This document shows, one piece after another, positions 3,402-15,496 of a stretch of DNA of 64,000 bases. A program made the translations under genes and the position numbers. Each line of letters starts with the position of its first letter. Position 1 is the first letter of the stretch. Source of the stretch: Bacteroidota bacterium. Lineage in GTDB: Bacteria; Bacteroidota; Bacteroidia; Flavobacteriales_D; Crocinitomicaceae. The DNA is taken from positions 248,001-312,000 of the forward strand of contig JASBTZ010000003.1 in the NCBI GenBank assembly GCA_030148165.1, read 5' to 3'. The notes under the pieces are model-generated. The model was not told where the DNA came from, made no database searches, and saw only the letters and a program-made list of their open reading frames with translations.

Positions 3402-4934
3402 TTATTCAACACACGAAGTAAGTTCAGAACCATGTTCACGCTTAAACATGATAAACTCTTCATCTTCAAATAGGACCCTCCATTCCTCATCCAACAGAAG
3501 TTCTTCATAACATGTAGTAACAGTTTCTACTCTTAAGGGATACGTATCGTCATTCTTGATCAGCGCGATATATTCTGCATCAGCAATTTTTGGGAATTTA
3601 TAGATGTTCTCTCTGAACGCTAAGTGAGATGTCAAATGCAGACTTGCACTAACTTTAGCGTCATCCGGAATTCGTTCGAGTTCTCGATAAATCTTTTTAT
3701 GATCATATTTGGAACGATACATCTCTGAACTGTAAAATTTGTATTTCGTATTCGTATACCACCCTATTAAGGAACGATTTTCGTTTTCCACTTTATAAAG
3801 AGTCATACTTAATGCTCCAATGCAGGCAAGACCGCCGAGAACAACGCTAACCTTGCGATACTTGATTTCGCTCAGTACGAAAAAGACCAGTATAGGTATA
3901 AGTGTTACGATCTCGATAGAATAGTAAGATTCTATGCCCCATCTGATATAGGAATCGTTGTACATTTTTTGGAAAATGATTGGAATCAATGCCAGCAAGT
4001 ATTTGGGTCGAAGCAACAATAAGATCCCGCCAGACACTAAATAAGTTGTATAAAACTCCAGCTTTACTCCATCAAACATGGGATCTCCGGAATGGTTTTT
4101 AAATAGCAGCCCTATACAATCAATAGGATGGGTGATCATATACTTGAGGGCCTCGAAAGGGGTACTCCCAAGAACCGCATAGTTAAACAAACTAAATGGA
4201 CGACCGGGATCTTCAATTGCAGGAATCAGAAACTTAAACGCAACCATAAAGTAGATTAATGAACCCAACGCAAAGCCAACCGCATAACGCATTTTGACTT
4301 TGTCATTTCGAAACATGAACATCAACATGATTGAAATAAATATCATCCACAACGGAATGCTCTCCCTGCCCAGGATCAAAAAAATAAACCAGAAAATTGC
4401 AAGCTTATAGTCTCCCTTGATAAAATGATACAAGAATACGGGAACAATGCTGGACAGAATGATCATCAGGTTGCAATCGGTAATAAATGAGCTATACCGA
4501 CCAAATAACACGAAATAAAGCAATAAGCCCATGTTGGCAAATATCTGTGAACTCGTATGGTACTTTATCAATTTATAACTCGCCCATCCTCCGTATAGGA
4601 TGAATGCACTTTGTATTATAAGCAAGGTATATGTTCCGAAAAGCCAGGATAATAACCAGTACAGGGGAATAAAGAAGAAAAATGTAAAAGAAAGGTGATC
4701 TTGAAGAAAGGTTTTGTTTTCTGCTAGCATAGCAGGGTTAACACTTACTCGAAAGTGTGCATAATCATAAAACGCAAAATTGTATGTAGTATAATCATTA
4801 TGAAAAGTTCGAAAAAAATAGTGATTGCAGATCGGTACAATTAAAATGATGAGACCGAAAATTAACAAAGTAGGTTTTAAATATGATCGTTCATTCAGAT
4901 GATTATAAAGAGATGTGATTAGGCGTCCTATCAT
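3402..4934 (-). CDS. DUF2079 family polytopic membrane protein
   Basis: A 510-aa protein with about ten membrane segments. Its N-terminal third has the DUF2079 layout: a soluble loop with NYTTYNFAFYDYAHF-like aromatic residues (about 45-60), then a DHLSFTFFFFIPLYWLL segment and a GRES motif (about 190). This family resembles GT-C glycosyltransferases structurally but has no proven substrate. A soluble C-terminal domain of about 110 residues follows the last helix. It is a single gene divergent from the methyltransferase at 5021. I saw no convincing promoter box upstream. Confidence 0.7.
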   Translation of the reverse strand: MIGRLITSLYNHLNERSYLKPTLLIFGLIILIVPICNHYFFRTFHNDYTTYNFAFYDYAHFRVSVNPAMLAENKTFLQDHLSFTFFFFIPLYWLLSWLFGTYTLLIIQSAFILYGGWASYKLIKYHTSSQIFANMGLLLYFVLFGRYSSFITDCNLMIILSSIVPVFLYHFIKGDYKLAIFWFIFLILGRESIPLWMIFISIMLMFMFRNDKVKMRYAVGFALGSLIYFMVAFKFLIPAIEDPGRPFSLFNYAVLGSTPFEALKYMITHPIDCIGLLFKNHSGDPMFDGVKLEFYTTYLVSGGILLLLRPKYLLALIPIIFQKMYNDSYIRWGIESYYSIEIVTLIPILVFFVLSEIKYRKVSVVLGGLACIGALSMTLYKVENENRSLIGWYTNTKYKFYSSEMYRSKYDHKKIYRELERIPDDAKVSASLHLTSHLAFRENIYKFPKIADAEYIALIKNDDTYPLRVETVTTCYEELLLDEEWRVLFEDEEFIMFKREHGSELTSCVE

Positions 4935-15074: not shown

Positions 15075-15101
15075 AAAAAATCCCCGAACAATGCCGGGGA
15101 T
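15075..15101 (-). terminator. Rho-independent terminator
   Basis: On the minus strand, ATCCCCG/CGGGGAT forms a 7-bp stem around an 8-base loop, then TTTTTT. It lies just downstream of the Cys-rich lipoprotein stop. Confidence 0.85.
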
Positions 15102-15124: not shown

Positions 15125-15496
15125 CTAGCCTTCAGACTCTTCTCCTCCTTCGCATTTTGCTTCTTCACCATCGCCGTGACCACACTTTCCTTCCTCACAC
15201 TTCATCTCTCCATCTTCTCCGTGTCCACATTTCCCCTCTTCGCATTTTCCTTCTTCACATTTACCTTCGCAGCACTTTCCTTCACAATCTTCTTTTGTGC
15301 AATCTTCTTTAGAACACTTCTTCTTGCAATCTTTTTCACAGTCCTTATCGCAATCTCCTTTGTGTTCGCAGTCATCACCGCAATCTTCTGTACATTCAGT
15401 CTTATCACCTTCCGCTGTATCTCCAGTAGCTTCTGAATTACAAGCAAATAGGAAAGCTGCGATCATTAAGGGGAAAATAAATTTTAACGTTTTCAT
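15125..15496 (-). CDS. Cys-rich lipoprotein with EGKC repeats
   Basis: 123 aa. A lipoprotein signal (MKTLKFIFPLMIAAFLFAC, Cys19 lipidated) precedes a low-complexity mature chain made almost only of Cys, Glu, Lys, Asp and Gly. The first half has Cys every 3-4 residues (CEDCGDDCEHKGDCDKDCE-like). The second half has five EGKC units plus EMKC, two of them in the form EGKCG followed by HG. EGKCG pentapeptides are the modified units of HvfA-type copper-binding RiPPs, but no DUF692/HvfB or HvfC gene is in view. Metal binding or buffering at the outer membrane is plausible. The gene has its own terminator. Confidence 0.75.
   Translation of the reverse strand: MKTLKFIFPLMIAAFLFACNSEATGDTAEGDKTECTEDCGDDCEHKGDCDKDCEKDCKKKCSKEDCTKEDCEGKCCEGKCEEGKCEEGKCGHGEDGEMKCEEGKCGHGDGEEAKCEGGEESEG

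Follow-up and report, generated by a model that had tools for sequence, protein, structure and literature searches.

Judging by its sequence, the small lipoprotein encoded at 15125..15496 (minus strand) of the window, the stretch of 64,000 nucleotides analysed here, falls in a second class of EGKC-repeat proteins that is linked to a GMC flavoprotein. EGKC repeats serve annotation as a sign of copper peptides made by the MNIO iron enzymes (NCBI models NF050137 and NF050188). In our sample of Bacteroidia, 10 of the 29 genomes with EGKC-repeat proteins were without MNIO, and 9 of those 10 carried one GMC flavoprotein. We see an even chance that the window protein is an extracytoplasmic, thiolate-rich lipoprotein of this MNIO-independent class, whose thiols likely bind a soft metal, and that the GMC flavoprotein and its small partner GLDH3 act on these thiols or exchange electrons with them.

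The lipoprotein and its gene

The gene encodes 123 amino acids from an ATG start. An earlier note on this DNA, made from the letters alone, had called the product a lipoprotein, and this prediction holds: residues 1–18 form a putative signal peptide (15443..15496, minus strand; by eye) and the lipobox LFAC occupies residues 16–19, with Cys19 as the lipid-bearing residue. Export and lipidation, as this prediction implies, would leave a membrane-anchored, acidic and probably unstructured product with ~17 thiols outside the cytoplasm. An inverted repeat that resembles a terminator lies behind the gene (15075..15101, minus strand; by eye); read in the direction of the gene it is ATCCCCGGCATTGTTCGGGGAT, and a stretch of T comes after it.

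The mature chain of 105 residues, counted from Cys19, contains 18 cysteines including the lipid-bearing one. A Cys module (residues 35–71; 15284..15394, minus strand) has cysteines at positions 35, 39, 43, 49, 53, 57, 61, 66 and 71, at a spacing of four to six residues. It is followed by an EGKC module (residues 72–115; 15152..15283, minus strand) with five EGKC units, two of which are EGKCG, plus one EMKC and one EAKC. The repeats described in the earlier note were thus found as stated, and composition does not explain them, since none of 100,000 shuffles of the chain contained more than three EGKC.

According to Pfam, the flanking genes encode an FMN reductase, a YCII-domain protein, an aminotransferase of class IV and an M28 peptidase. 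The window protein itself matched no Pfam family above cut-off. Its N-terminal, Cys-rich part resembles lipoproteins in two genomes of the same genus (G099 and G138; genes at L004 1471-1785 and L007 1339-1740). These two genomes have neither GMC nor MNIO, and their Cys-rich relatives of the window protein contain no EGKC.

Such an anatomy would suit a plain metal-thiolate buffer, in which unmodified thiols bind a soft metal (Cu(I), Zn or a similar ion) in the manner of an outer metallothionein, and the association with GMC stems from a common regulon or lifestyle without direct contact. The density of cysteines, their Cys-x3-Cys spacing and their acidic neighbours are in line with this explanation. 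So are the two relatives of the same genus, as they indicate that thiol-rich lipoproteins of this type occur where all these enzymes are missing. However, no known metal-handling gene was present among the genes flanking the window gene.

Relation to HvfA and the oxazolins

The earlier note had likened the protein to HvfA, had pointed out that no DUF692 gene lies in the window, and had suggested that the protein might be a substrate of an HvfB enzyme encoded elsewhere. We ran the genome-wide search for DUF692 and DUF2063 that it proposed. PF05114 (DUF692/MNIO) had no matches in the window or in the whole genome (3.5 Mb, 18 contigs, 98.8% complete), and PF09836 (DUF2063) had none in the whole genome either. 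In 14 control genomes, the same searches gave matches to PF05114 in two and to PF09836 in one. The observation on the window was therefore correct, while the idea of a distant HvfB fails, because both domains are absent from a genome that is 98.8% complete. An oxazolin fed by an MNIO elsewhere in this genome was rejected on the same grounds.

The likeness to HvfA survives in part. The EGKC(G) repeats are present, although only two of the five EGKC units have the full EGKCG that is repeated in the HvfA/oxazolin family, and the window protein had no match at E<=1 to the NCBI models NF050137 and NF050188. With no DUF692/MNIO, no DUF2063 and no match to the HvfA models, we do not file the window protein as an oxazolin.

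The models themselves separate the proteins incompletely. Of six MNIO-linked proteins, all except L015 passed NF050137 (L010, L019, L036, L040 and L041). Two of six proteins from GMC genomes passed it as well (L089 and L091, but not the paralogue of the window protein described below, L014, L013 or the window protein). Hence, the repeat alone cannot tell the two classes apart. None of these 12 proteins matched the full-length model NF050188, which therefore does not discriminate here. L089 (5723-6085) and L091 (5859-6158) are EGKC proteins encoded beside GMC in MNIO-free genomes, and annotation would label both as HvfA-family metallophores.

It is highly improbable, in our estimate, that the window protein is an oxazolin precursor whose MNIO gene lies at another site or in a part of the genome that the assembly lacks. 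The EGKCG units would be consistent with this, and lipidated oxazolins do exist, as NedA illustrates (PMC12636315). Moreover, 67 of 2583 Buf_EGKCG genomes lack MNIO in a published survey, the part of which used here suggests that precursors unlinked to MNIO are possibly unmodified, or modified from another locus (PMC12452194). Against this stand the absence of PF05114 and PF09836, the lack of a match to the HvfA models, and the absence from the window protein of an LG.GAE.R-type motif between signal peptide and repeats. In addition, the EGKC genomes G038, G052 and G147 of the same genus are also without PF05114.

MNIO-linked and GMC-linked proteins

The LG.GAE.R-type motif (LGSGAELR-like), which was chosen after inspection of the data, occurred in 18 of the 19 MNIO-linked proteins of the class sample (L017, L019-L024, L029, L030 and L034-L042), but was absent from all 20 EGKC proteins that GMC genomes encode and from the EGKC protein of genome G470. 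Possibly, MNIO or its partner recognises this motif. Lipoboxes showed the reverse distribution. They were found in 16 of the 20 EGKC proteins of GMC genomes (all except L080, L082, L086 and L089), whereas among the 19 MNIO-linked proteins the search flagged only L037. This lipobox sits in an apparently over-long N-terminus, so that by inspection none of the 19 is a lipoprotein. The window protein shares two features of the GMC-linked class, a GMC of the clade in its genome and a lipobox.

One genome holds both systems (that of L014, G153, with the coordinates of G141). Its MNIO-DUF2063 cluster (L015 952-3049) lies on a different contig from the GMC operon (L014 4585-7279) and has a precursor with IGSGGQIR and DAKCGEKGKS repeats, and the GMC operon has its own EGKC lipoprotein.

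Co-occurrence with the GMC flavoprotein

Protein searches with the low-complexity window protein as query missed relatives such as the operon lipoprotein of G052, and therefore a DNA pattern was used for the survey. The exact pattern EGKCEEGKC was found in five stretches of a collection of 85k genomes, from which the window's own genome was possibly left out. One of these (L010) comes from a gammaproteobacterium, where the gene adjoins DUF692 and DUF2063, and two (L011 and L012) belong to Fluviicola sp. XM-24bin1. The remaining two, L013 from a Bacteroidia MAG and L014 from a Flavobacteriales MAG, both show the gene order lipoprotein-GLDH3-GMC.

In a class sample of 395 genomes of Bacteroidia, the pattern KC[GED]EGKC, which misses variants such as CDGGE and CEGDSK, occurred in 31 genomes, PF05114 in 37 and GMC (E<=1e-100) in 11; the three surveys cover the same genomes as far as listed. 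Matches in G284 and G446 (and in G135 of the family sample) fell outside any EGKC frame and were not counted, which leaves 29 genomes with genuine KC[G/E/D]EGKC proteins. MNIO was present in 19 of these, at no more than 230 bp between the pattern and PF05114, and GMC in nine. None had both, and one had neither (G470, a genome 77% complete with the EGKC protein on a contig of 3.6 kb).

Among the 358 MNIO-negative genomes of the class sample, GMC was found in 9 of the 10 EGKC genomes versus 2 of the 348 others (Fisher p = 2.3e-15, or 5e-14 when G284 and G446 are counted), although genomes of one taxonomic family are not independent. Counted by family, GMC was present in six of the seven families with MNIO-free EGKC genomes, versus 6 of 78 families overall (p = 3e-8). 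Of the two GMC genomes without the EGKC pattern, G011 has, upstream of GLDH3, a CEEGACEAGACEGG lipoprotein; in G312 (82% complete) there was none. When 395 genomes sampled across the phylum, the window's own included, were searched, GMC turned up only in that genome and, as a 35% relative, in G742; the clade thus seems confined to Bacteroidia.

Mutual exclusion of MNIO and GMC was considered and dropped. PF05114 was absent from all 11 GMC genomes of the class sample, but the probability of this by chance is 0.33. Furthermore, within the window's taxonomic family PF05114 was found in 6 of 19 further GMC genomes versus 3 of 20 without GMC, and hence the two systems are not mutually exclusive.

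A second EGKC lipoprotein and a conserved operon

Protein search revealed a paralogue of the window protein on the same contig, 1.17 Mb away. It has 106 amino acids, seven EGKC and the lipobox LNSC, and the EGKC module of the window protein is 78% identical to it over 42 residues (G000:C14:1434720-1434842). The window gene is thus remote from GMC, whereas the paralogue lies in an operon in which it is followed by GLDH3 and the GMC flavoprotein. GLDH3 is a gluconate-2-dehydrogenase-subunit-3-like protein (PF13618, E 6e-11); its sequence contains SRKNF and, resembling a lipobox, LQSC. The GMC gene (G000:C14:1435493-1437175) encodes the domains PF05199 (E 5e-21) and PF00732 (E 6e-10), as expected of a GMC dehydrogenase of the FAD-GDH/FDH type.

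Within the window's family, GMC was found in 21 of 150 genomes. A lipoprotein lay upstream of GLDH3-GMC in all 21, and in 20 of them it had at least two cysteines beyond the lipid-bearing one. These lipoproteins carry Cys repeats with a period of five or six, in words such as KCEEGK, CEGDSK, CDGGE, CEDGA and CDGAEG; those of G020 and G097 have only two further cysteines. In G147, the operon lipoprotein (L138 about 4430-4790, plus strand) has the lipid-bearing cysteine only, and Met/Glu-rich stretches instead of the repeats. EGKC proteins occurred in 6 of the 21 GMC genomes of the family versus none of the 58 GMC-negative genomes tested (48 + 10, with 71 others outside the count; p = 2e-4).

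Outside the family, an EGKC gene adjoined GLDH3-GMC in four of nine GMC genomes of the class sample (G322, G399, G409 and G445) and in the genome of L013. The orientation of the genes varied there between same strand, convergent and divergent, but their adjacency was kept. Overall, a lipoprotein adjoined the GMC pair in 26 of 31 GMC genomes. In G213 and G250, two genomes of one taxonomic family (L107 and L108), GMC lacks a recognisable GLDH3 and lies beside a lipoprotein-like gene of 344 to 345 amino acids.

A plain thiolate buffer, the explanation raised above for the window protein, leaves this conserved operon unexplained, as it does the association of EGKC proteins that lack MNIO with a single GMC family. 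We therefore regard a plain buffer as a real possibility, but on the doubtful side.

Several genomes encode EGKC proteins besides the one in the operon. The window protein is one of these; G409 has two such lipoproteins, G399 has one additional protein, and G039 has an additional lipoprotein that mixes a Cys module with EGKC units like the window protein. In three genomes of the same genus (G038, G052 and G147), a membrane H+-pyrophosphatase (PF03030; L011 28-2460, L168 1-1572 and L173 1462-3021) ends like the window protein: its C-terminal tail contains 17 to 21 cysteines, the latter number in G147, and two or three EGKC. This terminus probably faces the periplasm.

The GMC flavoprotein

By sequence, the closest solved structures are a glucose dehydrogenase (6a2u, E 4e-44) and a fructose dehydrogenase (7w2j, E 2e-38). 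In the glucose dehydrogenase of Burkholderia, Cys212, Cys218 and Cys222 bind a 3Fe-4S cluster, His476 and Asn519 are the likely catalytic pair, and the small subunit has been named a hitchhiker protein, according to the part of the structural report used here (PMC6719666). C210, C216 and C221 of our GMC align with the three cluster ligands, the last spacing being one residue longer. In contrast, the catalytic pair is replaced in the alignment by Gln495 and Thr537. We aligned 30 sequences from the 31 GMC genomes, leaving out the split gene of G105. All 30 kept a GGCR stretch and the three cluster cysteines, and all 30 had Q, M, V or I at the position of His476 and T, P or Q at that of Asn519. 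The loss of this pair makes the alcohol-oxidising chemistry usual for GMC proteins unlikely in the clade. The catalytic His is kept in the 35% relative of G742. An AlphaFold2 model of the L014 GMC (aligned with the L013 GMC) had a mean pLDDT of 28 and was set aside.

Our GMC opens directly at its FAD-binding motif, so that no signal peptide is seen. By analogy with the glucose dehydrogenase of Burkholderia, it may be exported with GLDH3 as its hitchhiker protein, and lipoprotein and GMC-GLDH3 would then meet in the same extracytoplasmic compartment.

The Cys-repeat lipoprotein might act as electron acceptor or donor for GMC-GLDH3, in place of the c-type cytochrome subunit of the glucose and fructose dehydrogenases. 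The alignment of the three cysteines with the 3Fe-4S ligands fits such a role, and reading the loci by eye we noticed no gene for a cytochrome subunit beside the pair. Yet the lipoproteins beside the pair have two (G020, G097) or zero (G147) repeat cysteines in some genomes, and we know of no metal centre for EGKC-type repeats. Such a role of the lipoprotein as electron partner is very unlikely in our judgement.

How the GMC flavoprotein may act

We return to the reading of the window protein as a member of an EGKC class that is independent of MNIO and functionally tied to GMC and its GLDH3 'hitchhiker', encoded 1.17 Mb away. Its thiols would most likely take up soft metals, for instance Cu(I), and the GMC flavoprotein may oxidise or modify these thiols, or exchange electrons with them. 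More specifically, GMC-GLDH3 might stand beside MNIO as an unrelated enzyme that oxidises the cysteines of EGKC lipoproteins, or modifies them in another way, outside the cytoplasm after export, a convergent and MNIO-independent route to Cys-based metal ligands with several substrates per genome. The proposed substrates are the operon lipoprotein, the window lipoprotein and, in relatives, the tail of the pyrophosphatase. We regard this more specific proposal as unlikely.

Some observations count against an action of GMC on the window protein. The window gene does not lie beside GMC, and its link runs through the shared genome and the likeness to the operon lipoprotein. The loss of the repeat cysteines from the operon lipoprotein of G147 stands against a strict substrate relation, although the EGKC tail of the pyrophosphatase carries cysteines in that genome. 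EGKC genes lie away from the GMC locus in four genomes (G170, G213, G250 and G282), and G312 has GMC without the EGKC pattern.

The pairing of EGKC proteins with GMC nevertheless suggests that such lipoproteins may be made or used by another route. If GMC acts on the cysteines, the enzymes behind peptide metal ligands would gain a new class. If it does not, the pairing would still point to a definite partner, open to testing, for proteins that present-day models would mistake for oxazolins.

Comparison with known systems

EGKCG peptides with MNIO have already been published (PMC13097082), and so has a lipidated one, NedA (PMC12636315). In open-access papers we found no report of a pairing between EGKC or Cys-rich lipoproteins and GMC/GLDH3, and the bufferin survey never mentions GMC (PMC12452194).

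HvfA or oxazolin (Buf_EGKCG) and the fontiphorin FonA are exported proteins with EGKC(G) repeats that have been proposed as extracytoplasmic copper ligands (PMC12452194, PMC13097082). The window protein resembles them in its repeated EGKC(G). However, they are modified by MNIO and a DUF2063 partner, genes that its own genome lacks, and MNIO-linked precursors of Bacteroidia have the LG.GAE.R motif, whereas the window protein has neither this motif nor a match to the HvfA models.

NedA of Neisseria dentiae is a lipidated oxazolin with a lipoprotein signal and EGKCG (PMC12636315), and in both respects the window protein is similar. NedA is accompanied, however, by NedB (an MNIO) and NedC, with a shift of -4 Da per EGKCG, while the window's genome is without such enzymes. 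The bufferins Buf1 and Buf2 are extracytoplasmic Cys proteins to which copper buffering is ascribed, and ~16% of Buf2 are predicted lipoproteins (PMC12452194). Their Cys patterns differ from that of the window protein, and both depend on MNIO.

Conversely, GMC-GLDH3 finds its closest parallel in the gamma-alpha complex of the FAD-glucose dehydrogenase of Burkholderia cepacia (6a2u) and in fructose dehydrogenase (7w2j), with which it has in common a related GMC subunit, three aligned 3Fe-4S cysteines and a small partner. It departs from both in the replacement of His476 (Q/M/V/I) and Asn519 (T/P/Q), and in the Cys-repeat lipoprotein that lies beside the pair.
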